From the NCBI GenBank assembly GCA_013334755.1, contig JAAXWX010000014.1:1-46243 (forward strand): DNA of 46,243 nt, read 5' to 3'. The DNA comes from Chlorobiaceae bacterium (GTDB lineage Bacteria > Bacteroidota > Chlorobiia > Chlorobiales > Chlorobiaceae). Of this stretch, positions 27,927 through 41,093 are shown in pieces; within the stretch, counting starts at the first letter, position 1, and every line of letters begins with the position of its first letter. The notes beneath the pieces were generated by a model. That model worked only from the letters and a program-made list of their open reading frames with translations. It was not told the origin of the DNA and made no database searches. The position numbers and the translations under genes are program-made.

Positions 27927-29507
27927 TTAAAACAGATGGACGTTCTGGATCACCATGTAAGCCAGCGCTGAACCGGAAAGAGCACAGAGCGTGTTGACCA
28001 GATCATTATTGACAAGCGGAGTTCCCTTAAGAAGCCTGTTTTCAACCAGCAATCCATCAGGAGCAATACTATGGGTCCTCTCCGTTACCTTTTCACGGAT
28101 CGGATCAAAATACTGGGCCTGTACAGTCGCCCCGAAAAAGCTGTCAACCAGACTGGCAAGCAGTCCGGAAAAACCAATCAGAAGAAAGGATTGGAGTATT
28201 CCAAAATCAGTCAACCATTTGACATTGATGAGCATTGCACTGGCACAGATAAAAAGCGAGCCAAGAAATGCCCCTGAAGTACCAGGCACAGATACACCTC
28301 CGGAAGTTCCGACAGGCACCTCCTTGAAAGTAGTCACTAACCAGGCTTTTGGATTTGGCCACATGGTACCGATCTCAGTTGCCCAGGTATCAGCCTGCAC
28401 TGCGGCAAGCGTTCCGAGGTAGGCAAAAAAGATTGCCGGATCATTATTCAAAGAAAAAACAATCATCAAAATCCAGGCGATCCCCCCGTTGGCATAAACC
28501 TGACCTGCATCCCGCTGTGATCCCTTTTCAAAAACCAGGTCAAATTTAGCCTTCCGCTTTTTGCCCAGTTTCGACAATACCGACGACAAGAGATAAAAGG
28601 TAAGCAGAGGTATAGTCCACTCTATTCCACCGATACCAAAAATTGTTGTTCCAAGCAAAAACGTCGCCGTTGCCCCGCTGTTGTTGAGAAACTTGACCTT
28701 GATCGAAAAAACGGCAAGAAAAAAGGCAAACAGTCCGCCAAGAAGAAAGCGCTCAAGAACGATGGTGTGATTCATCTCCAGAACATAGAGCACATAGGCT
28801 ATCGAAACGGGAATAAAAAAATTATCGAGCCCGTGAGACAGCAACGCCTCAACAGCAGTTGCAACAAGGGCAAGAAGAAGCGCAAGGGCAAGAAGAATCA
28901 ACACCGACTTGCCTGCCAGTCCGCCGCTGAAATCTTTACTGAAAACCATAAGGCTCGCACTGAGCAGCAGACAACTGCTTAAAAACATGGTTAGTGATCC
29001 CTCAACAGTCTTGGGATTTTTCGTCAGATGCTCAATATGTTTTTTGCCCACAGAACTGCCAACCAATGCTGCAAGCGAGTCACTCACACCCATAACAAGC
29101 ATGGAGGTCTGCAATATCCACTTATGGGACTCCCAGAGAAAAAGAAGCTGAAACAGAAAGACAAGAGGGAAAAGAAGCGAGCCAAAACTTTTTACTGCAG
29201 GAGACTTGGCATTCTTCTCCTCAGGAAGGGCAAGCAGAGAACCAAACCACTTCAATTGAATGTTCAAACCATTAAAAAGCAGCAAGAGGAGTGCAGCAAG
29301 CGCAGGATAAAAATTAGACTGAAAATAAGCAGGCACAAAAAAAATCACCACTCCCATGGAGAGATGAACGATTTTCCTGACAACAAGAGCGCTGACACGA
29401 AATTTTCTTGTCAGCAGTTCCGCAAGAAGAACAAAAAGCGATACAAGAGAGAGTGTCAGGAAAAAAGCAGGTAAATCCTGAGGCAATGGGGCTTGGATAT
29501 TCAGCAT
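27927..29507 (-). CDS. Fused polyprenol/phytol kinase (VTE5-like) and polyprenyl-phosphate kinase (DUF92/VTE6-like)
   Basis: 526 residues, all-membrane. The N-terminal half (1-225) is the CTP-dependent dolichol/phytol kinase fold: RKIVHLSMG (44-52), VSDSLAALVG (141-150) and KTVEGSLTM (166-174). The C-terminal half (about 250-526) is DUF92/TMEM19: NNSGATATFLLGT, FEKGSQRDAGQVYANGG, ADTWATEIGTMWP and VPVGTSGGVSVPGTSG. In plants and cyanobacteria VTE5 makes phytyl-P and VTE6 makes phytyl-PP, so this single protein may carry out both steps from free phytol or farnesol, recycling alcohols from bacteriochlorophyll. Substrate unproven. It lies 24 bases upstream of tolQ, same strand. Start ATG 29507. 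Confidence 0.82.
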   Translation of the reverse strand: MLNIQAPLPQDLPAFFLTLSLVSLFVLLAELLTRKFRVSALVVRKIVHLSMGVVIFFVPAYFQSNFYPALAALLLLLFNGLNIQLKWFGSLLALPEEKNAKSPAVKSFGSLLFPLVFLFQLLFLWESHKWILQTSMLVMGVSDSLAALVGSSVGKKHIEHLTKNPKTVEGSLTMFLSSCLLLSASLMVFSKDFSGGLAGKSVLILLALALLLALVATAVEALLSHGLDNFFIPVSIAYVLYVLEMNHTIVLERFLLGGLFAFFLAVFSIKVKFLNNSGATATFLLGTTIFGIGGIEWTIPLLTFYLLSSVLSKLGKKRKAKFDLVFEKGSQRDAGQVYANGGIAWILMIVFSLNNDPAIFFAYLGTLAAVQADTWATEIGTMWPNPKAWLVTTFKEVPVGTSGGVSVPGTSGAFLGSLFICASAMLINVKWLTDFGILQSFLLIGFSGLLASLVDSFFGATVQAQYFDPIREKVTERTHSIAPDGLLVENRLLKGTPLVNNDLVNTLCALSGSALAYMVIQNVHLF

Positions 29508-29589: not shown

Positions 29590-29838
29590 TTATAACATTT
29601 TTAATGTTTGTTTTACTAAAAGTTTAAATGTATTTTGTCTCAAATTTTCGTTTAATACCGAAAAACCTTTTCCATAAATGTCTGCATTGAATTCACAGAC
29701 CAACTTGTCCATCTGCTGCTCTGGAAAGCCGGCACAGTATCGGTCGTTATTTTCCTTCGATATGGCAACGCATGTGCCGAACTCCCTCAACTCCTGGATC
29801 GGAATCGCAGTCACTGTGACTGCAGTACTGGTGAGCAT
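29590..29838 (-). CDS. Possible small unknown protein (weak)
   Basis: An 82-codon frame on the minus strand between the kinase fusion and ilvD; it is the only minus-strand frame of this size in the gap. It has no signal, membrane segment or known motif (three Cys). Its first 77 bases lie opposite the candidate ilv leader peptide at 29762-29851. I would not rely on it, but it is kept as a possible gene because nothing else accounts for 29590-29761. Confidence 0.22.
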   Translation of the reverse strand: MLTSTAVTVTAIPIQELREFGTCVAISKENNDRYCAGFPEQQMDKLVCEFNADIYGKGFSVLNENLRQNTFKLLVKQTLKML

Positions 29839-29851
29839 TACCGTGCTCTGA
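29762..29851 (+). CDS. Candidate ilv leader peptide, 29 codons
   Basis: ATG at 29762, TGA at 29849-29851, 114 bases before ilvD. After the Trp at residue 12 the peptide holds ten Ile, Val or Leu codons among its last 17 (WIGIAVTVTAVLVSITVL). This is the composition of leader peptides that control branched-chain amino acid operons, such as E. coli ilvGMEDA. No clear Shine-Dalgarno precedes it. A terminator-like hairpin (29909-29928) and possible antiterminator pairing lie between it and ilvD. It could be a chance frame; the composition and the place make that less likely. Confidence 0.5.
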   Translation: MATHVPNSLNSWIGIAVTVTAVLVSITVL

Positions 29852-29863
29852 ACTACAGAACCG

Positions 29864-29939
29864 TTCCCAAGTCCATTTTCTACTTTTCAATCGTATCTTC
29901 ACAGTGGCTTCGGGATCGGCGGCCCGGGTATATCTTTTT
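29864..29939 (+). promoter_or_regulatory. Candidate transcription attenuator upstream of ilvD
   Basis: TTCGGG (29909-29914) pairs with CCCGGG (29923-29928), with two G-U pairs and an 8-base loop, followed by TATATCTTTTT: an intrinsic-terminator shape. TTCCCAAG (29864-29871) can pair with CTTCGGGA (29908-29915), one mismatch, and would hide the 5' arm as an antiterminator. GGAAT (29801-29805), inside the leader peptide frame, could pair with GTTCC (29863-29867) when no ribosome covers it. The topology is that of classical attenuation; no energy was computed. Confidence 0.4.
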
Positions 29940-29964
29940 AATTGCCTAATAATTTTTTACTGCC

Positions 29965-31662
29965 ATGAGATCTGATACAATCAAAACAGGGTTTGAAAAA
30001 GCGCCGCACCGCAGCCTTCTGAAAGCCACAGGCTCTATTGTTTCAAATAATGACTTCAAAAAGCCCTTTATCGGAATATGTAATTCCTTCAACGAACTGA
30101 TTCCAGGTCATTCCCACCTGCAGGAACTCGGCCGCATAGCTAAAGAAGAGGTTCGAAAGGCCGGAGGAGTTCCTTTCGAATTCAATACCATCGGTGTATG
30201 CGACGGTATTGCGATGGGCCATATCGGCATGCGCTACTCCCTTGCAAGCCGTGAACTGATTGCCGACAGTGTCGAAACCGTTGCCGAAGCCCACCGGCTC
30301 GACGGCCTGGTCTGTATTCCGAACTGCGACAAGATCACCCCCGGCATGATGATGGCTGCACTTCGCATCAACATTCCGGTTATCTTTGTCTCCGGCGGCC
30401 CTATGAAAGCCGGCCACACTCCTTCAGGTAAAACCGTTGACCTGATTTCAGTCTTCGAGGCTGTCGGTGAGTTCAGTGCCGGAAAAATCAGCGATAATGA
30501 GCTGGAATCAATAGAAGATAATGCCTGCCCCGGATGCGGCTCATGTTCCGGAATGTTCACGGCAAACTCGATGAACTGCCTCAGCGAAGCACTGGGCTTT
30601 GCCCTGCCCGGCAATGGCACGATACTTGCAATCGACCCCCGGCGCAACGAACTGGTCAAAGAGGCCTCCCGCCGGATTATCGATCTGGTCAAAAACGATA
30701 TCAAACCGAGAGATATTCTCACACGCAATGCCCTGCTGAACGCTTTTGCCCTTGATTTTGCAATGGGAGGCAGCACCAATACCATCCTGCATACGCTCGC
30801 CATTGCAAACGAAGCTGAACTCGACTTCGATTTCTCGGAATTGAACGCCCTTTCCGCAAAAACGCCCTATATCTGCAAGGTCAGCCCTGCCACTATGGCT
30901 GTCCATATCGAGGATGTAGACCGTGCAGGAGGCGTATCCGCCATTCTTCATGAACTCAGCAGGATTGACGGCCTTCTTGACCTCTCTGCCATGACCGTTA
31001 CAGGCAGAACACTTGGCGAAAATATTGCCGATGCGGAGGTTCTTGACCGCTCGGTTATCAGAAGTATTGAAGAACCATACTCCGCTACAGGAGGACTTGC
31101 TGTTCTCTACGGGAATCTTGCACCCCAGGGCGCTGTTGTAAAAACAGGTGCAGTCGCCCCGGAGATGATGATCCATACCGGTCCGGCAAAAGTTTATGAC
31201 TGCCAGGATGATGCCATCAAAGGTATTATGGAAGACGATGTCAAAGCCGGTGATGTGGTTGTGATACGCTATGAAGGTCCAAAGGGAGGCCCCGGCATGC
31301 CGGAAATGCTCTCCCCGACCAGCGCCATCATGGGTCGCGGTCTCGGTGGATCAGTTGCACTTCTTACTGACGGACGCTTCTCCGGAGGATCAAGAGGAGC
31401 CTGTATCGGCCACATCTCTCCCGAAGCAGCCGAGAAAGGCCCGATTGCCGCCCTGATAAACGGCGACATGATCACCATCGATATTCCGGCAAGAAGCATC
31501 TCGGTCAACCTGAGTGACACTATTATCAATGAACGGCTTGCCTCACTGAAGCCATTTGAACCGAAAATCAAAAAAGGATATCTGGCCAGGTATTCACAAA
31601 TGGTCACATCGGCCAATACCGGCGCAATCCTGAAAAGCCCAGTTTCCTGTGAACCTAAATAA
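29965..31662 (+). CDS. ilvD: Dihydroxy-acid dehydratase
   Basis: 565 residues. Dehydrates 2,3-dihydroxyisovalerate and 2,3-dihydroxy-3-methylvalerate to the 2-keto acids of valine and isoleucine. The Fe-S cysteines are in CDKITPGM and in [20 protein letters not shown]. The IlvD/Edd signatures GGSTNTILH and [12 protein letters not shown](A)CIGH are intact, and the conserved Ser of the latter is the likely base. Start ATG at 29965, preceded by the leader and attenuator region. First enzyme gene of the nine-gene operon; its end is 7 bases before the ilvB ATG (an in-frame GTG at 31649 would overlap). Confidence 0.96.
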
Positions 31663-31669
31663 ACCAGCT

Positions 31670-33391
31670 ATGCATTCATCAGGCCAAACACTCAATGGCT
31701 CAGAAATATTTTTCGAATGTCTGCGGCGTGAAAACGTTGAATATATTTTCGGGTATCCGGGCGGATCCCTGTTAAAAGTTTACGAAACACTCTATGATGT
31801 AGAAGACATCCAGCACATCCTTGTCCGTCATGAACAGGGCGCAACCCACATGGCCGAGGGTTATGCCCGCGCCACGGGAAAACCGGGAGTTGTTCTCGTC
31901 ACCTCCGGTCCCGGCGCAACAAACACCGTCACCGGAATCGCCAACGCCTACATGGACTCCTCTCCGATGGTTGTCTTTACCGGACAGGTGCCAAGCTCTC
32001 TGATCGGCAACGATGCCTTTCAGGAAGCCGACATTGTCGGCATCACCCGGCCCATAACAAAGCACAATTTTCTCGTCAAGGATGTCAAAGAACTTGCCAT
32101 AACCATCCGCAAGGCATTTTTTCTTGCGACAAACGGCAGACCGGGTCCGGTTCTTGTTGATATGCCGAAAGATATCCTGAACGCATCCTGTGTTTTTCAG
32201 TGGCCTGAGACTGTTGACATTCGAGGGTTCAAACCAACCCTGAAATGCCATATCAATCAGGTTCAGAAAGCAGCACATAAAATTGCCAAGGCAAAACGCC
32301 CCCTGCTCTATATCGGAGGCGGAGTTATCAGTGCAGAAGCATCCGAAGAGCTCCGGAAATTTGCCATCCAGCAGAATATACCGGTCACCATGACTCTACA
32401 GGGACTTGGAGCCTTCCCTGGCAACCACCCGCTCAGTCTGGGAATGCTCGGCATGCATGGAACCTACTGGGCAAACCGCGCGGTCAATGCCTGTGATCTT
32501 TTGATTGCCGTCGGCGCACGCTTTGACGACCGGGTCACCGGAAAAGTCGAAACTTTTGCTCCGCAGGCATACAAGATCCATAATGACATTGATCCCACCA
32601 ATGTTGATAAAAATATCAAGGTTGATCTGCCGATCGTCGGGGATGCAAAGCATTTTCTCTCCTCTCTTATCGAAGAGATGCCTGACGCCTTTGAAAACCG
32701 TGAGTCCTGGCTTGCCCAGATCAACCAATGGCGAGAGGAATGCCCACTGACCTATACCTCTGATGACAACACGCTGAAAACCGAATTTGTCATCGACGAA
32801 GTTTCAAAACAGACCAAAGGCAATGCGGTTGTTGTCACCGATGTCGGTCAGCACCAGATGTGGACATCGCAGTTTTACACCTTCATCAATCCGCGATCAA
32901 TCATTACAAGCGGCGGACTCGGCACCATGGGTTACGGCCTGCCTGCGGCTATCGGCGCAGCCTTCGGCATCAAGGATCGTCCGGTTGTCCTCTTCTGCGG
33001 AGACGGCGGAATTATGATGAATATTCAGGAGCTCGTCACGGCTGTTCACGGTAAAGTGCCCATAAAGATATTCCTGATCAACAACAGCTTTCTCGGCATG
33101 GTCCGCCAGTGGCAGGAACTGTTCCACAAAGAAAAATATTCCTTTACTGATCTTGGCGACAGCAACCCCGACTTTGTAAAGGTTGCGGAAGCATTCGGAT
33201 GCAAGGCGCTCAAAGCTGATAACCCGGCAACTGCAAGAGAGGCTATCAAGGAGGCACTTGCATGGAATGAAGGCCCTGTTCTTGTTGATTTCAGGGTTAT
33301 CAAAAAAGATATGGTCTTCCCTATGGTGCCTGCCGGAGGTTCAATTTCAGATATGCTCCTGGAAAGGTTAAACCCAAAAACAATGGTGTAA
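31670..33391 (+). CDS. ilvB: Acetolactate (acetohydroxy acid) synthase large subunit
   Basis: 573 residues from the ATG at 31670; the in-frame GTG at 31649 would overlap ilvD. The TPP enzyme fold is in three parts: the PYR domain with the catalytic Glu in RHEQGATHMAEGYARATGK, the central FAD-type domain (IGGGVIS, ARFDDRVTGK), and the PP domain with the TPP motif CGDGGIMMN...LVTAVHGKVPIKIFLINN. It condenses pyruvate with pyruvate (valine, leucine) or 2-oxobutyrate (isoleucine). The next gene, 7 bases away, is its regulatory subunit. Normal family length. Confidence 0.96.
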   Translation: MHSSGQTLNGSEIFFECLRRENVEYIFGYPGGSLLKVYETLYDVEDIQHILVRHEQGATHMAEGYARATGKPGVVLVTSGPGATNTVTGIANAYMDSSPMVVFTGQVPSSLIGNDAFQEADIVGITRPITKHNFLVKDVKELAITIRKAFFLATNGRPGPVLVDMPKDILNASCVFQWPETVDIRGFKPTLKCHINQVQKAAHKIAKAKRPLLYIGGGVISAEASEELRKFAIQQNIPVTMTLQGLGAFPGNHPLSLGMLGMHGTYWANRAVNACDLLIAVGARFDDRVTGKVETFAPQAYKIHNDIDPTNVDKNIKVDLPIVGDAKHFLSSLIEEMPDAFENRESWLAQINQWREECPLTYTSDDNTLKTEFVIDEVSKQTKGNAVVVTDVGQHQMWTSQFYTFINPRSIITSGGLGTMGYGLPAAIGAAFGIKDRPVVLFCGDGGIMMNIQELVTAVHGKVPIKIFLINNSFLGMVRQWQELFHKEKYSFTDLGDSNPDFVKVAEAFGCKALKADNPATAREAIKEALAWNEGPVLVDFRVIKKDMVFPMVPAGGSISDMLLERLNPKTMV

Positions 33392-33398
33392 ACTGTCT

Positions 33399-33875
33399 AT
33401 GAAACATATTATTTCTGTATTGGTTGAAAACAAGTTCGGCTCCCTTAACCGGGTTGCCGCGATGTTCAGCGCCCGGGGATTCAACCTCGAAAGCATATCC
33501 ATCGGTGAAACTGAAGACACTGAAATCTCGCGCATGACCATTGTGACGCGGGGTGAAGACCAGATCATCAGCCAGGTGCTCAAACAGCTGAACCGGCTGG
33601 TCGACACCATCAAGGTTACCGATCTGACCCGTCAGCCGCATGTTGAGAGGGAGCTGCTCCTGATGACCCTGAAACTCAGCAAGCCTGTACAGCATGAGAT
33701 TTTTGAGCTTATCAATGTTTTTAAAGGAAAAGTCGTGGATATAAAACAAAAATCCATTACTATTGAGGTCATCGGATCTCCGGACAAGATCAACACAACT
33801 ATCGATATCTTCAAGCCGTACGGCATAAAAGAGCTTGCCCGTTCTGGCGCGGTAGCAATACATCGGGGAGAGTAA
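33399..33875 (+). CDS. ilvN: Acetolactate synthase small (regulatory) subunit
   Basis: 158 residues, the long IlvH/IlvN type. The N-terminal ACT domain (1-75) has the pattern [25 protein letters not shown] conserved second half (about 80-158) has [42 protein letters not shown]. It binds valine and stimulates the large subunit, giving feedback control of the pathway. ATG at 33399. Confidence 0.95.
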
Positions 33876-33915
33876 CTTTTTTTTAATGAATTATCAATCA
33901 AACCCATTCTGCGAA

Positions 33916-34908
33916 ATGAACGTTTATTATGAGAAAGATGCCGATCTCGGTTATCTTCAGGGAAAAAATATTGCAATACTCGGTTACGGCAGCCAGGGCC
34001 ATGCTCATGCCCTTAACCTCAAGGAGAGCGGCCTCAATGTTCGCGTAGGTCTTCGTACAGACAGCACATCATCAGCCAAAGCAAGGGAAGCCGGCCTGCA
34101 GGTCGACACTGTTGCTGAAGCAGTCAAATGGGCAGACATCGTCATGGTCCTGCTTCCAGACCAGACCCAGAAGGCAATCTATGAAGCTGAAATTCTCCCG
34201 AACCTCGTAGCTGGCAACACCCTTGCCTTCGCTCACGGCTTCAATATTCATTACAAGCAGATTGTGCCACCGGAAACAATCAACGTTATCATGATTGCCC
34301 CGAAAAGCCCCGGCCACCTTGTGCGCCGCACATTCACACAGGGCAACGGCGTCCCCTGCCTTATCGCGGTTCATCAGGACGCAACCGGAGAGGCAAAACA
34401 GCAGGCGCTTGCATGGGCTAAAGCTCTTGGCGGCACCAAAGCCGGCGTCATCGAGACAACCATCAAAAACGAAACGGAAACCGATCTCTTCGGTGAACAG
34501 GCTGTCCTCTGCGGCGGTTCAGCCGAACTGATCAAGGCTGGATTTGAAACACTTGTTGAAGCCGGCTACCCTGAAGAGCTTGCCTACTTTGAATGCATGC
34601 ATGAGCTGAAACTCATTGTAGATCTCTATTATGAAGGAGGTCTTTCACGAATGAATTACTCCGTCAGCGATACGGCCGAATACGGCGGCATGACCCGCGG
34701 ACCACGCCTCATTACGCCTGCGGTAAAGGCCGAGATGAAAAAAATCCTTGAGGAAGTTCAGGACGGTCGTTTTGCCAAAGAGTTTATTGACGAGTGCAAT
34801 GGCGGATACAAAAACCTGAGCAAACTCAGAGCTGAAAACAGCGGCCATGCCATTGAAAAGGTTGGTGCCAAACTCCGTGACATGATGAGCTGGCTGATCA
34901 AAAAATAA
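33916..34908 (+). CDS. ilvC: Ketol-acid reductoisomerase
   Basis: 330 residues, class I (short) KARI. I take the ATG at 33916 ([14 protein letters not shown]), the start used for the Chlorobium proteins as I know them; an upstream ATG at 33886 adds ten residues not seen in them. NADPH-binding motif [17 protein letters not shown] at about 24-40, followed by the cofactor-specifying loop LRTDSTSS. Metal/active-site region: [11 protein letters not shown] (about 130) and the C-terminal knotted domain with [30 protein letters not shown] and [11 protein letters not shown]. It isomerises and reduces acetohydroxy acids to dihydroxy acids. 40 bases separate it from ilvN. Confidence 0.95.
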
Positions 34909-34924
34909 CCCATTCAACAGAAGA

Positions 34925-35983
34925 ATGTACAAGATTGTCTCAATACCGGGCGATGGTATAGGCCCGGAAGTCGTTGCAGGAGCTGTTTCAGTGCTTGGGC
35001 AGCTCTCAAAAAAACATGGCTTTGAAATTGTAATTGAAGAGCACCCCTTCGGCGGAGCTTCGTATGAACTGCATGGTGAAATGCTCACCCAGGCAACGCT
35101 TGACGCCTGCCGCAACTGCGACGCCGTGCTGCTTGGAGCCGTTGGCGGCCCGAAATGGGAAAGCCTGCCGCACGAACACAAGCCGGAAGCTGCACTGCTT
35201 AAAATCCGCAAAGAGCTTGAACTCTTTGCCAATCTCAGGCCGGCCAAAGTCTACGATGCACTGCTTGACGCATCATCACTAAAGGCAGACGTTGTTCGCG
35301 GTACTGATTTCCTTGTTTTCAGGGAGCTCACCGGCGGCATTTATTTCGGCCAGCCACGCGGCTTCGATGAAAACCGGGGCTGGAACACCATGGTCTATGA
35401 GCGCTATGAAGTAGAGCGAATTGCCCGTCTGGCTTTTGAAGCTGCCCGGAAACGCAAGGGGAAAGTCATCTCGATCGACAAGGCAAACGTGCTTGAAGTT
35501 TCACAGTTCTGGAGAAATGTGGTGCATGAAGTCCACAAGGATTTTACCGATGTGGAACTAAGCGACATGTATGTGGATAACGCCGCAATGCAGATTGTCC
35601 GCAATCCGAAACAGTTTGATGTTATCGTGACGAGCAACCTCTTCGGCGACATATTAAGCGACATCGCCGGCATGATCACCGGAAGTCTCGGCATGCTCCC
35701 TTCGGCAAGCATCGGCACAAAATACGCACTCTACGAACCGATTCACGGAAGCGCACCGGATATTGCAGGCCAGAACAAGGCTAACCCGATTGCCACCATC
35801 GCATCGGTAGCCATGATGTTTGAACACAGTTTCAATTTGCCGGATATCGCTCGTGAGATTGAGCTGGCAATTGAGGCAACCCTGGCCTCCGGACTACGGA
35901 CAGCGGACATCGCCAATGCAGGAGACCCAGTGATTGCAACAACAGAGATGACAGAAGCAATTGTCAGGCATCTCGGCGCCTGA
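34925..35983 (+). CDS. leuB: 3-Isopropylmalate dehydrogenase
   Basis: 352 residues. Beta-decarboxylating dehydrogenase: oxidises and decarboxylates 3-isopropylmalate to 2-oxoisocaproate. Marks are the start IPGDGIGPEVV, LLGAVGGPKWE, the substrate Arg and loop LELFANLRPAK and FRELTGGIYFGQPRG, the catalytic Lys-Asp block SIDKANVLEVSQFWR and VTSNLFGDILSDIAG, and the NAD loop EPIHGSAPDIAGQNKANP. Nothing unusual. It could also serve as 3-methylmalate dehydrogenase in the citramalate route, since cimA is in the same operon. Start ATG 34925, 16 bases past ilvC. Confidence 0.95.
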   Translation: MYKIVSIPGDGIGPEVVAGAVSVLGQLSKKHGFEIVIEEHPFGGASYELHGEMLTQATLDACRNCDAVLLGAVGGPKWESLPHEHKPEAALLKIRKELELFANLRPAKVYDALLDASSLKADVVRGTDFLVFRELTGGIYFGQPRGFDENRGWNTMVYERYEVERIARLAFEAARKRKGKVISIDKANVLEVSQFWRNVVHEVHKDFTDVELSDMYVDNAAMQIVRNPKQFDVIVTSNLFGDILSDIAGMITGSLGMLPSASIGTKYALYEPIHGSAPDIAGQNKANPIATIASVAMMFEHSFNLPDIAREIELAIEATLASGLRTADIANAGDPVIATTEMTEAIVRHLGA

Positions 35984-36005
35984 TAAAAAATAGGCGGAGA
36001 GAGAG

Positions 36006-37574
36006 TTGAAAGAAAAGATTATTGTATTTGATACAACCCTGCGCGATGGAGAGCAGTCCCCCGGAGCTTCGCTCAATGTTCAGGAAAAGGTGGAAATTGC
36101 CCGGCAGCTTGAAAAACTCGGGGTAGATGTGATTGAGGCCGGTTTTCCGGCTTCATCACCACTGCAGCTTGAAGCGGTTCAACGGGTGAGCGCAGAGTCG
36201 AAAGCAGTCGTAGCCGCACTGGCCAGAGCGGTGGAGAACGACATTGCCGCAGCATGGAATGCCGTACAGCAGGCACGCAAACCTCGCATCCACACCTTTA
36301 TCGGCACCTCTGACATCCATATCGCCGGAAAATTCGGCAGTGACCGATACGGCCTTACCCTGCAGGAAAAACGGCAAACCGTCCTCAAGATGGCGGTCAA
36401 CGCCGTCACTTTTGCCAAGACCTTCACGGCCGATATTGAATTTTCTGCTGAAGATGCAGGACGCACCGATCAAGGTTACCTGGCAGAAATCATCGAAGCG
36501 GTTATTGCCGCTGGAGCAACAACGGTCAACATTCCCGACACCACCGGCTATACCTGGCCTTCAGAATTCGGCCGGAAGATAGCTGATCTCCGCAGCCGCG
36601 TGAAAAACATTGGTAATGCCATCATCAGCGTGCACTGCCATAACGACCTCGGTCTGGCGGTGGCAAACACACTCAGTGCACTGGAACACGGTGCCCGTCA
36701 GGTTGAATGCTCGATGAACGGCATAGGAGAACGGGCCGGAAATGCATCGCTTGAAGAGATTGTGATGGCTCTGAAAGTCCGGAGCGATCTGCACAACTTC
36801 TACACCGATATCGTCACCGAAGAGCTTTACAATACGAGCCGGATGGTTTCTACCTTCACCGGCATCATCATACAGCCCAACAAGGCAATTGTCGGCGACA
36901 ACGCATTCTCGCACGAATCCGGCATCCATCAGGACGGCATGCTGAAAAACCGGCAAACCTATGAGGTGATGACTCCGGAATCGGTGGGCGTGCCGCAAAC
37001 CAGCATCGTACTCGGACGCCATTCAGGCAAGCACGGCCTCAAATCCCGTCTTTTTGCCCTCGGCTACAACCTTGATGACACCGAACTCGAAGCGGTGTAC
37101 AAGCGATTTGTTGAAATCGCCGACAAAAAGAAAGAGGTCTTTGACGACGACCTGCGGGTACTGATGGGAGATGAACGGAGCAAGCCTCGGAACGCTTATG
37201 AGCTTGATTACCTTCACATCAACAGCGGTACGGCTTCAATTCCAACAGCAACGGTGAGAATCCGGCATAACAGCCAGATTTTTGAAGAGTCCGCCATAGG
37301 TGACGGCCCGGTTGATGCCTGCTTCAGGGCTATTGAACGGGCGCTCGGCATAGAATCAATGGTCAGTTCCTACTCCGTCCGTTCAACCACGGCTGGCCGC
37401 CAGGCACTCGGTGAGGCACTGGTACGAATAAGAGACAAAAATATTTCCTTTAACGGAAGAGGGGTTTCGACCGATATTATAGAGGCAAGCGCCAAAGCCT
37501 ATCTGCAGGCTCTTGGCCTCCGCCAGCATCATTTTCAAAACAAGACTACTGAAACCATAGACAGCGGGGTTTAA
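36006..37574 (+). CDS. leuA: 2-Isopropylmalate synthase
   Basis: 522 residues with a TTG start at 36006; the purine-rich GGCGGAGAGAGAG before it is the best ribosome-binding site in the region, and no other start is close. The N-terminal TIM barrel (1-280) carries DTTLRDGEQSPGASL, EAGFPASSP, HCHNDLGLAVANTLSALE and the GERAGN loop with its metal ligands. A linker (HSGKHGLKSRL) and the C-terminal LeuA dimer and leucine-feedback domain (about 390-500: TASIPTATVRI, GDGPVDACFRAIE) follow. It condenses acetyl-CoA with 2-oxoisovalerate, the first leucine step. Confidence 0.95.
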   Translation: MKEKIIVFDTTLRDGEQSPGASLNVQEKVEIARQLEKLGVDVIEAGFPASSPLQLEAVQRVSAESKAVVAALARAVENDIAAAWNAVQQARKPRIHTFIGTSDIHIAGKFGSDRYGLTLQEKRQTVLKMAVNAVTFAKTFTADIEFSAEDAGRTDQGYLAEIIEAVIAAGATTVNIPDTTGYTWPSEFGRKIADLRSRVKNIGNAIISVHCHNDLGLAVANTLSALEHGARQVECSMNGIGERAGNASLEEIVMALKVRSDLHNFYTDIVTEELYNTSRMVSTFTGIIIQPNKAIVGDNAFSHESGIHQDGMLKNRQTYEVMTPESVGVPQTSIVLGRHSGKHGLKSRLFALGYNLDDTELEAVYKRFVEIADKKKEVFDDDLRVLMGDERSKPRNAYELDYLHINSGTASIPTATVRIRHNSQIFEESAIGDGPVDACFRAIERALGIESMVSSYSVRSTTAGRQALGEALVRIRDKNISFNGRGVSTDIIEASAKAYLQALGLRQHHFQNKTTETIDSGV

Positions 37575-37581
37575 GAAAACC

Positions 37582-38877
37582 ATGGCACAAACAATAACCC
37601 AGAAAATCCTTTCCAGGGCAGCAAACAGAAAATTTGTCGACGCAGGCGAAAGCGTCTGGCTGAATGTCGATATCCTGCTTACCCATGATGTCTGCGGACC
37701 GCCGACCTTTGATATTTTCAAACAGGAATTCGGACCTGACGCAAAAGTATGGGATCCGAAAAAAGTTGTCGTCCTGCCTGACCACTATATTTTTACAGCA
37801 AACGAGCACGCCCATCGCAATATCGATCTGCTGCGCCAGTTTGCAAAAGAGCAGGGACTTGAACACTACTACGATGTCGGCTCCGACCGCTATAAAGGTG
37901 TCTGTCATGTCGCCTTGGCAGAAGAAGGCTTTAATCTGCCAGGCACCGTGCTCTTCGGAACCGACTCTCATACCTGTACTTCAGGAGCATTCGGCATGTT
38001 CGGCACAGGAATCGGTAACACCGACGCAGCATTCATTCTCGGCACCGGAAAACTCTGGGAAAAAGTCCCGGAATCGATCAAGTTCACCTTTGACGGTCCG
38101 ATGCCTGAATATCTTACAGCAAAAGACCTCATTCTGCAGATTCTCGGCGATATCACCACCGACGGCGCAACCTACCGGGCCATGGAGTTTGATGGAGAAG
38201 CAATTTTTTCACTTCCCATGGAAGAGAGAATGACTTTGACCAACATGGCCATTGAAGCCGGAGGCATGAACGGCATCATCGCTGCCGACAGCATTGCCGA
38301 AACCTATGTCAAGGCAAGAAGCAACAAGCCCTATGAACTCTTCCAGAGCGATCCGGATGCAAAATATCACAGCAAGTACCATTACAACGTCCGTGATCTT
38401 GAGCCTGTAGTAGCCCAGCCGCACAGCCCTGACAACCGTGCCACAGTGAGAAGCGTCCAGGGCACCAAAATCACCAAATCCTATATTGGCTCCTGTACCG
38501 GCGGCAAACTGACCGATTTTGTCATGGCAGCTAAAATTCTGAAAGGACACAAGGTTGCCGTTACCACAAACATTGTCCCGGCCACGGTTAAAGTTGCCCG
38601 TGACCTTGAATGTGAAAGGTATGATGGTCAGACCCTGAAACAGATCTTTGAAGATGCGGGATGCAGCATTGCCCTCCCCTCATGCGCAGCATGTCTCGGA
38701 GGCCCTGCCGATACCGTCGGACGTTCGGTTGATAACGATGTGGTCGTTTCTACCACAAACCGCAATTTCCCCGGCAGAATGGGCAGCAAACATGCAGGAG
38801 TTTACCTTGCCTCCCCGCTCACGGCAGCCGCTTCGGCAATTACGGGAAAACTCACCGATCCGAGAGATTTTCTCTGA
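37582..38877 (+). CDS. leuC: 3-Isopropylmalate dehydratase large subunit
   Basis: 431 residues, the short LeuC form of archaea and several bacteria (HacA type), shorter than the E. coli enzyme. [4Fe-4S] ligands: the Cys of FGTDSHTCTSGAFG region, of IGSCTGGKLTDF, and two of PSCAACLGGP, all present. It isomerises 2-isopropylmalate to 3-isopropylmalate with LeuD, and in the same operon probably citramalate to 3-methylmalate. Start ATG 37582, 7 bases after leuA. Confidence 0.94.
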   Translation: MAQTITQKILSRAANRKFVDAGESVWLNVDILLTHDVCGPPTFDIFKQEFGPDAKVWDPKKVVVLPDHYIFTANEHAHRNIDLLRQFAKEQGLEHYYDVGSDRYKGVCHVALAEEGFNLPGTVLFGTDSHTCTSGAFGMFGTGIGNTDAAFILGTGKLWEKVPESIKFTFDGPMPEYLTAKDLILQILGDITTDGATYRAMEFDGEAIFSLPMEERMTLTNMAIEAGGMNGIIAADSIAETYVKARSNKPYELFQSDPDAKYHSKYHYNVRDLEPVVAQPHSPDNRATVRSVQGTKITKSYIGSCTGGKLTDFVMAAKILKGHKVAVTTNIVPATVKVARDLECERYDGQTLKQIFEDAGCSIALPSCAACLGGPADTVGRSVDNDVVVSTTNRNFPGRMGSKHAGVYLASPLTAAASAITGKLTDPRDFL

Positions 38878-38912
38878 TCGGCTCAATGGACTAACTTTTT
38901 TGCATTACACCA

Positions 38913-39479
38913 ATGGAAACCATCATTCAGGGAAAAGCCTACGTTTTAGGCAAAAATATCGATACCGACCAGATCATACCGGCCGAACATCTGGTCTACA
39001 GCCTCTCGGATCCTGAAGAGGTAATACTCTACGGCAAATATGCCCTTTCCGGCGTTCCACCCGAACAGGGCGGCCTGCCTGAAGGCAACGTCCTCTTCGT
39101 TGACGAGGGCAGCTGCCAGTCAAAGTTCACCATCATTATTGCCGGACCGAACTTCGGCTGTGGATCATCAAGAGAGCACGCGCCTTTCGCCCTCAAGGTT
39201 GCCGGCGTTAAAGCCATTGTTGCTGAGTCATACGCAAGAATTTTTTACCGCAACTGTGTCGATGGAGGCTTTGCGATCCCTTATGAGACTGCTGAACAGC
39301 TCAATAAGGTCATCAAAACCGGTGACGAACTGAAAATTGATGTAGAAGCAAATACCATCGAAAATTTGACAAGCAAGGTCACCTACAAGCTCAATCCACT
39401 TGGCGATGTTTTCAACATTGTTGAGGCTGGCGGAATTTTTGCTTATGCCAGACAGGAAAATTTAATGCCTCAACCCTGA
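38913..39479 (+). CDS. leuD: 3-Isopropylmalate dehydratase small subunit
   Basis: 188 residues. The swivelling aconitase-like domain has KNIDTDQIIPAEHL at the front, the substrate loop GPNFGCGSSREHAPFAL, and the FYRNCVDGG block. It is the partner of LeuC. Short family form matching the short LeuC. Start ATG 38913, 35 bases past leuC; ends 3 bases before cimA. Confidence 0.95.
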   Translation: METIIQGKAYVLGKNIDTDQIIPAEHLVYSLSDPEEVILYGKYALSGVPPEQGGLPEGNVLFVDEGSCQSKFTIIIAGPNFGCGSSREHAPFALKVAGVKAIVAESYARIFYRNCVDGGFAIPYETAEQLNKVIKTGDELKIDVEANTIENLTSKVTYKLNPLGDVFNIVEAGGIFAYARQENLMPQP

Positions 39480-39482
39480 TAT

Positions 39483-41093
39483 ATGACTGCTACTCCAAAA
39501 GCAATAGAACTTTACGACACGACCCTGCGTGACGGCACGCAGGGTGAGCATATCAACCTTTCTGTACAGGACAAGCTGCTGATTGCCCAGAAGCTTGACG
39601 AGTTCGGCATGGATTATATTGAGGGCGGATGGCCGAGCAGCAATCCAAAAGATGAAGAGTTTTTCCTTAAGGCGCGACTACTTGAGCTCAAACATGCAAA
39701 GCTCACCTCCTTCGGCTCTACTGCCCGTTTTGTAAAAAGCGTTGACAGCGATCCCAACCTGCTCGGGCTGCTCCAATCCGAAACTCCGGTCATCACTATT
39801 TTCGGAAAAACATGGAAAGCACACTCCAAAAAAAGTCTCGGCATTTCGGATGAAGAGAATGCCGAACTGATCTATCGCTCAGTCAGCTTCCTCAAGCAGG
39901 AGGGGCGGGAGATCTTTTTTGATGCCGAACACTTTTTCGACGGCTACAAAGACAACCGCGAATTTGCCCTGAAAATGCTTGTTTCAGCAGTTCAGGCTGG
40001 AGCATCAAGAATAGTGCTGTGCGACACCAACGGAGGATCACTGCCCCATGAGATAACGGATATCGTTGCACACGTCCTGGCTGTCACCGGAGTTCCCGTA
40101 GGCATTCACAGCCACAATGACGGCGATCTGGCCGTGGCCAACTCCATAGCTGCCGTCATGGCCGGCGCAACCCATATTCAGGGAACCATCAACGGTATCG
40201 GCGAACGGTGCGGCAACGCCAATCTTATCAGTATTATTCCCAATATCATGCTGAAGCTGGAGCGTTCCTTCTCCTTTGTGGAACACCTCAATCAACTGAC
40301 ATCACTCTCGAAGTTCGTTTACGAGATTCTGAATATGCCGTCAAATACCCGTGCACCCTTTGTCGGAAAATCAGCATTCGCCCACAAGGGCGGCATTCAT
40401 GTCAGTGCCGTCATGAAAGAGAGCTCACTTTACGAGCATATCGACCCCAAACAGGTCGGAAACCGTCAACGAGTTCTTGTTTCAGAACTTGCCGGCCAGA
40501 GCAACATTCGATACAAAGCACAGGAGCTCGGTATAAGCCTGCCCGAAAAAAGCGAACTCATCAAGGATATCGTCCATCATATCAAAGAGCTCGAACACGA
40601 AGGCTATCAGTTTGACGGAGCAGAAGCCTCATTCGAACTCCTCCTGCATAAAGAGCTCGGCAACTTCAAACCGTTCTTTGAAGTCCTTGAAACCAAGGTG
40701 CATATCGAGTCTGCCAAAAATGCGAAAAATGTAGACCAGGCGGTACTCAAGGTGAAGGTTGGAGAGGAGATCGAGCATATTGCCGCCGACGGTGACGGCC
40801 CGGTCAACGCACTCGACAAGGCACTCCGCAAGGCATTGATCCATTTTTACCCTGAGATCAAGAGCATCAAGCTGGTTGACTACAAGGTCCGGGTGCTGGA
40901 GGAAAAACGCGGCACCAGCGCCAAAGTGCGGGTGCTGATCGAATCAAGCAACGGACGCTATACCTGGGGAACAGTCGGCGTCTCCACAAACATCATTGAG
41001 GCAAGCCTTCATGCCCTCGAGGACAGTATGAACTACCACCTCTTCACCCTGAAAGCCTCAATGCCGAAAAGCAAAGCAACCCCTCAGGCATAA
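39483..41093 (+). CDS. cimA: (R)-Citramalate synthase
   Basis: 536 residues. It shares the LeuA-type layout but is distinct in substrate region: DTTLRDGTQGEHINLSVQDK instead of the leuA QSPGASL, EGGWPSSNPKDEEFF, FGKTWKAHSKKSLGIS, SHNDGDLAVANSIAAVMAGA, and the TINGIGERCGNANL loop. The C-terminal regulatory domain (about 400-520: GPVNALDKALRKAL, VRVLEEKRGTSAKVRVLIE) follows. This is the bacterial citramalate synthase class, which condenses acetyl-CoA with pyruvate to citramalate. LeuCD and LeuB then give 2-oxobutyrate for isoleucine without threonine. Last gene of the operon, ending at a strong terminator. Confidence 0.92.
   Translation: MTATPKAIELYDTTLRDGTQGEHINLSVQDKLLIAQKLDEFGMDYIEGGWPSSNPKDEEFFLKARLLELKHAKLTSFGSTARFVKSVDSDPNLLGLLQSETPVITIFGKTWKAHSKKSLGISDEENAELIYRSVSFLKQEGREIFFDAEHFFDGYKDNREFALKMLVSAVQAGASRIVLCDTNGGSLPHEITDIVAHVLAVTGVPVGIHSHNDGDLAVANSIAAVMAGATHIQGTINGIGERCGNANLISIIPNIMLKLERSFSFVEHLNQLTSLSKFVYEILNMPSNTRAPFVGKSAFAHKGGIHVSAVMKESSLYEHIDPKQVGNRQRVLVSELAGQSNIRYKAQELGISLPEKSELIKDIVHHIKELEHEGYQFDGAEASFELLLHKELGNFKPFFEVLETKVHIESAKNAKNVDQAVLKVKVGEEIEHIAADGDGPVNALDKALRKALIHFYPEIKSIKLVDYKVRVLEEKRGTSAKVRVLIESSNGRYTWGTVGVSTNIIEASLHALEDSMNYHLFTLKASMPKSKATPQA

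Follow-up and report, generated by a model that had tools for sequence, protein, structure and literature searches.

A probable ribosome-mediated transcription attenuator upstream of the ilvD-first branched-chain amino acid operon in Chlorobiaceae

Introduction

How is a long operon for branched-chain amino acid synthesis adjusted to supply in a green sulfur bacterium, and does the region upstream of its first gene hold the answer? The stretch of DNA analyzed here (the window) comprises 46,243 nucleotides of contig JAAXWX010000014.1 from a Chlorobiaceae bacterium; coordinates refer to its plus strand unless stated otherwise. Its leader region is flanked by a divergent minus-strand gene (27927–29507) and by ilvD (29965–31662), which encodes dihydroxy-acid dehydratase and is the first gene of the presumed operon. 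The remainder of the operon (31649–41093) consists of ilvB, ilvN, ilvC, leuB and leuA (starting at 31649, 33399, 33886, 34925 and 36006, respectively), followed by leuC (from 37582), leuD (from 38913) and the citramalate synthase gene cimA (39483–41093). All nine genes, in the order ilvD-B-N-C-leuB-A-C-D-cimA, are on one strand with intergenic gaps of no more than ≈35 nt, an arrangement from which we infer co-transcription as a single unit. All belong to the Ile/Val/Leu synthesis pathway, and an attenuator in this leader would thus stand upstream of the matching biosynthetic operon.

The classical ribosome-mediated attenuators are those of the enterobacterial ilvGMEDA, ilvBN, leuABCD, trp and his operons, and the best-known leader-peptide attenuators come from Proteobacteria, Actinobacteria and Firmicutes. 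According to a study from 2010, none had been known outside Proteobacteria and Actinobacteria before its own additions from Firmicutes (PMC2965389). Here, we describe an element upstream of ilvD that very probably controls the branched-chain amino acid operon by ribosome-mediated transcription attenuation.

Results

The Leader Reading Frame

A sequence-only reading of the window had proposed a 29-codon leader peptide, ending at the TGA at 29849–29851, with ten of its last 17 codons specifying Ile, Val or Leu. The frame and its control-codon block (29798–29848) are present as described, but the length had to be corrected. ilvD and its upstream DNA were collected from relatives in the same genus and the same order, yielding 36 loci including the window: 34 from the genus of the window and two (L037 and L038) from another family. 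In all 36, a frame rich in branched-chain codons terminates shortly 5' of the same RNA block. An ATG is found 40–58 codons upstream of the stop in 34 of the 36 loci. Of these 34 leaders, 18 have it at exactly codon −57, as do at least five of the 20 loci from a second genus, while an ATG at −29 (29765 in the window) occurs in just four of 36. Because the ATG at −57 recurs and that at −29 is rare, we place the leader start at 29678, giving an open reading frame of 57 codons plus TGA (29678–29851; MSALNSQ...SLNSWIGIAVTVTAVLVSITVL).

The frame is open in 34 of 34 genomes, compared to five and seven for the remaining two sense frames. In these genomes, 49% of the last 20 leader codons specify Ile, Val or Leu, against 21% and 6% in the other sense frames, with Val the most frequent control codon, followed by Ile and then Leu. 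Ile and Val together account for only ≈5% of the leader codons that precede the control block. The locus thus has a short leader, predicted to be translated, that is rich in codons for the products of the operon. Leader lengths vary (57, 48, 46 codons and others), with the frame kept and the stop ≈7–11 nt 5' of the first switch strand (strand 2, below). In the group with 48-codon leaders, 27 nt have been deleted right beside the stop, yet the position of the stop relative to strand 2 is unchanged. Exceptions are L012, whose leader appears to be frameshifted in its first half, and L004, which has no start at the usual site.

The Antiterminator Helix

RNAalifold, run on the leader alignment, returned a single helix, formed between strand 2 (CCGTTCCCAAGTCC; 29861–29874) and strand 3 (GGCTTCGGGATCGG; 29906–29919). 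An alternative pairing between 29864–29871 and 29908–29915 had been suggested from the window sequence; such a pairing does exist, but that register gives way to a longer helix of 29861–29873 with 29906–29919. Its pairs are 29861–29863 with 29917–29919, 29865–29868 with 29912–29915 and 29869–29873 with 29906–29910, interrupted by a mismatch (29864 × 29916) and a bulged C at 29911. In the alignment, 87.6% of the cells for this helix are paired and four pairs show changes on both sides. The covariation score exceeded those of all 500 shuffles and of every slid register.

The covariation set was then enlarged with the second genus and more congeners to 60 loci, representing 35 distinct strand combinations. 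(L102 was mis-anchored in this set, which had only the effect of adding unpaired cells.) The enlarged set contained 21 double-change cells, compared to 8.8 when strands were swapped between genomes, and none of 2000 swaps matched it; in one such change, CCG/CGG is replaced by CCT/AGG. Family-wide alignment therefore bears out the conservation of the frame, the branched-chain codon block, the stop position and the antiterminator, the last with compensatory changes, and the possibility that frame and stems would be unconserved in close relatives did not materialize.

The mismatch 29864 × 29916 is itself conserved, being unpaired in 34 of 36 genomes, though its bases vary.

The Candidate Terminator and Flanking Hairpins

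Strand 3 can also pair with strand 4 (CCCGGG; 29923–29928), which is followed by a U-tract at 29935–29939. The terminator-like hairpin noticed earlier at 29909–29928, with its T-run, was confirmed in the sequence. Antiterminator and terminator thus have strand 3 in common, with covariation in helix 2:3 but not in 3:4: helix 3:4 is conserved (87% paired), and no compensatory changes were found in it across the aligned genomes. In the window, it consists of just four G-C-type pairs and two G-U pairs, and the U-tract begins six bases beyond the stem. A T-run of at least four after strand 4 is present in 40 of 60 genomes, compared to 11% in shuffles, and the region contains two terminator-like sites, where 0.5 are expected. 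Helix 3:4 and the U-tract form a candidate terminator, with a transcript end predicted near 29940.

In 48 of 50 distinct sequences, the leader stop codon is enclosed by a small hairpin (TCTG/CAGA; 29847–29859 in the window), with a mean z of −1.64, compared to 0.17 in a control window. In the window itself it is weak, at −2.5 kcal/mol. Our guess is that it serves as a pause site. A candidate strand 1 (GGATCGG), which mimics strand 3 and lies near codon −18, is seen in many long leaders. On average, its pairing was no better than in codon-shuffled controls (mean z −0.13), and no clear protector helix 1:2 emerged.

The Promoter-like Element

A promoter-like pair upstream of the leader consists of TTG (29608–29610) and TATTTTG (29631–29637), separated by a 20-nt spacer. 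In 52 of 54 genomes, the pattern TTG-N19/20-TAnnTT occurs 38–77 nt 5' of the leader ATG, compared to 10% in shuffles. TTG-N20-TAnnTT resembles the Bacteroidetes-type promoter; a sigma-70 scan of the region gave no promoter. Transcription would start near 29643. The conservation of the pair 5' of the leader makes a start downstream of 29851, which would have spoken against the attenuator, unlikely.

Distribution in Chlorobiales

A covariance model of the element (R1) was built and searched against the genome of the window and 98 Chlorobiales genomes. (A search across the class covered the same 98 genomes.) R1 matched once in the genome of the window and in 74 of the 98. Five genomes of the second genus (L101–L105) and L038 have the leader but a switch that has diverged further, and were R1-negative; in the other negative genomes, a complete ilvD is missing from the assembly or the family does not have this ilvD. 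The exceptions are three related genomes (G021, G035 and G085; loci L031, L032 and L099) with an intact ilvD and no attenuator element, a pattern suggestive of a single-lineage loss. Two of these genomes are small (1.6 and 1.8 Mb) and the third is 2.1 Mb. A second R1 match in G104 (L094) lies inside a coding sequence and was rejected as a chance hit. A search of plasmids gave no match.

Proposed Mechanism and Folding Calculations

The sequence-only reading had likened the arrangement to classical attenuation, and comparative analysis supports this through the conserved leader, the control codons, the stop spacing and the covarying antiterminator, all of which are clear at the level of sequence. 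The leader would presumably sense charged tRNA. In the mechanism we propose, RNA polymerase would initiate near 29643, followed by a ribosome translating the 57-codon leader. Ile and Val are almost absent from the first ≈37 codons, which the ribosome would pass whatever the supply of these amino acids. When charged Val- or Ile-tRNA (and, less so, Leu-tRNA) is scarce, the ribosome would stall in the last ≈18 codons, leaving strand 2 free to form the 2:3 antiterminator, and transcription would continue into ilvD. When charged tRNA is plentiful, the ribosome would reach the stop codon, where its front edge would crowd strand 2, and the resulting 3:4 pairing would terminate transcription near 29940.

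The RNA from the ribosome front edge to the terminator was folded with the edge at varied positions. (These are equilibrium calculations that ignore kinetics.) Edge positions are counted from the first base of the stop codon. As long as the edge lies upstream of ≈+9, most genomes form the 2:3 helix; over the range from ≈+9 to +17 this helix gives way, and strand 3 either finds a partner downstream or is left unpaired. By the toeprint distance, the front edge of a ribosome should be at ≈+12 to +13 when the stop codon occupies the A site. The window flips at +17, ≈4 nt past this expected edge, so that a terminating ribosome would need to interfere slightly past its footprint. In six of 60 genomes, the antiterminator was never favored in equilibrium folding.

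Related Elements in Sister Lineages

The closest ilvD genes of other lineages often have leaders with 8–13 Ile/Leu/Val in the last 16 codons, and in a broader sample of 69 loci, six leaders had at least ten, compared to 0.2% of shuffles. In most of the same-phylum leaders of this kind, strand 2 (GGTCAATCCC or similar) lies 5–10 nt past the stop and strand 3 (GGGGTTGACC) begins 38–75 nt past the stop. In the 2:3 helix of these lineages (23 sequences), six pairs have changed on both sides, and the covariation score surpasses that of every one of 500 shuffles. In several sister lineages that share this geometry, strand 4 is not followed by a clear U-tract, and their read-out may thus differ. A hairpin before the ilvD Shine-Dalgarno sequence in sister families gave weak scores (mean z −0.97).

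The ilvD leaders rich in branched-chain codons (L109–L114, L118 and L200–L228) come from Calditrichia, Neomarinimicrobiota, CSSED10-310 and genomes of the same phylum.

A second model (R2) was built from the sister-lineage leaders, with no Chlorobiales in the training set. Outside that set, it found one further ilvD leader (L248) and two elements upstream of leuB in other families, with Leu/Ile-rich leaders (L251 and L254). Since R2 was trained on ilvD leaders only, the leuB matches are an independent sign that the element tracks branched-chain amino acid genes. One further match (L253) had no leader and was rejected. R2 matched the deep-branching Chlorobiales L037 and L038 weakly and in the right place (E of 0.095 and 0.52), and L037 looks intermediate. 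In Chlorobiaceae, R2 gave no match. Common descent of the Chlorobiales element with the phylum-wide set is therefore plausible but unproven.

Tentatively, and as a possibility we would not yet favor, one ancient homologous attenuator RNA may serve ilvD operons, and in some cases leuB operons, throughout the phylum and perhaps in neighboring phyla, with an output that depends on the lineage. Its layout would be the stop codon, GGTCAATCCC 5–10 nt further on, a loop of ≈20–60 nt, GGGGTTGACC and strand 4 (ACCC). Its output would have shifted between intrinsic termination in Chlorobiaceae and another read-out, perhaps at the ilvD start, where there is no U-tract.

A conserved TATATCTGAAG is found 3' of strand 4 before ilvD in several sister-family genomes (L200–L212), and in some of them it pairs with TTCAG beside the ilvD Shine-Dalgarno sequence. 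The window has TATATCT at this place, followed by the U-tract.

Alternative Explanations

We considered the possibility that attenuation here is translational, with the ribosome on the leader altering access to the ilvD start site and 3:4 not being a working terminator. Such a scheme would fit the absence of covariation in helix 3:4 and the several sister lineages that have no clear U-tract, as well as those in which the 3:4 hairpin ends within ≈10–20 nt of the ilvD start. In Chlorobiales, however, strand 3 ends ≈39–52 nt before ilvD and the T-run after strand 4 is far above chance, and the leader stop in the window is 113 nt from ilvD, too distant for simple re-initiation. Translational attenuation is improbable for this locus, and transcription attenuation is the preferred reading.

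That the 57-codon frame encodes a working small protein, perhaps in the membrane, and that the RNA structure is incidental, is considerably less probable still. A conserved frame and start and a hydrophobic C-terminal end are what such a protein might have. However, pN/pS for the leader is 0.87 (37 close pairs), indicating that the amino acid sequence is otherwise hardly constrained; both length and sequence are variable, and the amino acid class is conserved only in the final codons. The leader frame has no NCBIfam match, and the covarying RNA helix is located outside the frame. Low protein constraint combined with an open frame and branched-chain codons is expected of an attenuator leader rather than of a working protein.

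Finding a conserved long-range helix 5' of a biosynthetic operon might bring to mind a ligand-binding riboswitch or T-box in place of a leader sensed by the ribosome, but this reading can practically be dismissed, as conservation falls on the translated frame and the control codons, and Rfam 15 offered no credible match: no family reached the gathering threshold, the window scan (E up to 5) gave only spurious matches, and seven loci from relatives gave none.

Discussion

The Chlorobiaceae element has in common with the enterobacterial attenuators a leader rich in product codons, a stop immediately 5' of strand 2, an antiterminator and a terminator that exclude one another, and a biosynthetic operon downstream. 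It differs from them in its 57-codon leader, compared to roughly 14–32 codons there, and in having no clear protector helix, and its sequence does not resemble those of the Rfam leader families.

A comparable arrangement has been described for Staphylococcus aureus, where an attenuator also precedes an ilvD-first ilv-leu operon, with a peptide rich in branched-chain amino acids and a terminator before ilvD; that peptide, however, is Leu-rich, and the proposed antiterminator pairs with the poly-U tail (PMC5794164). The region before ilvD in Staphylococcus rostri (L133:528–733) matches the Rfam family rli60, which is listed as an sRNA of Listeria, unlike the window and its relatives. Upstream open reading frames rich in branched-chain codons, for which attenuation has been proposed, also characterize the ilvB-II (Corynebacterium), ilvB-OMG and Leptospira ilvB motifs, but these precede ilvB rather than ilvD, and the ilvB-II frame usually has 15–17 codons (PMC10272879). 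We file the mechanism as classical and the element, provisionally, as a new RNA family. A 2010 attenuation survey by Lopatovskaya, Seliverstov and Lyubetsky reportedly included the Bacteroidetes/Chlorobi group, and a Chlorobi ilv attenuator may already have been predicted there; the papers searched here gave no description from Chlorobi.

A conserved attenuator of this kind would imply close coupling between ribosome and RNA polymerase in green sulfur bacteria, with one steering the other, and it offers a point at which control over the supply of branched-chain amino acids can be tested. Attenuator-type sensors have been described as rapidly evolving; if the phylum-wide elements are homologous, attenuator strands would be traceable over large evolutionary distances.

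A minor observation concerns the second gene of the operon. The ilvB frame as listed begins with a GTG at 31649, so that its first 14 nt (31649–31662) coincide with the end of ilvD, which suggests either translational coupling between the two genes or a true ilvB start further downstream.
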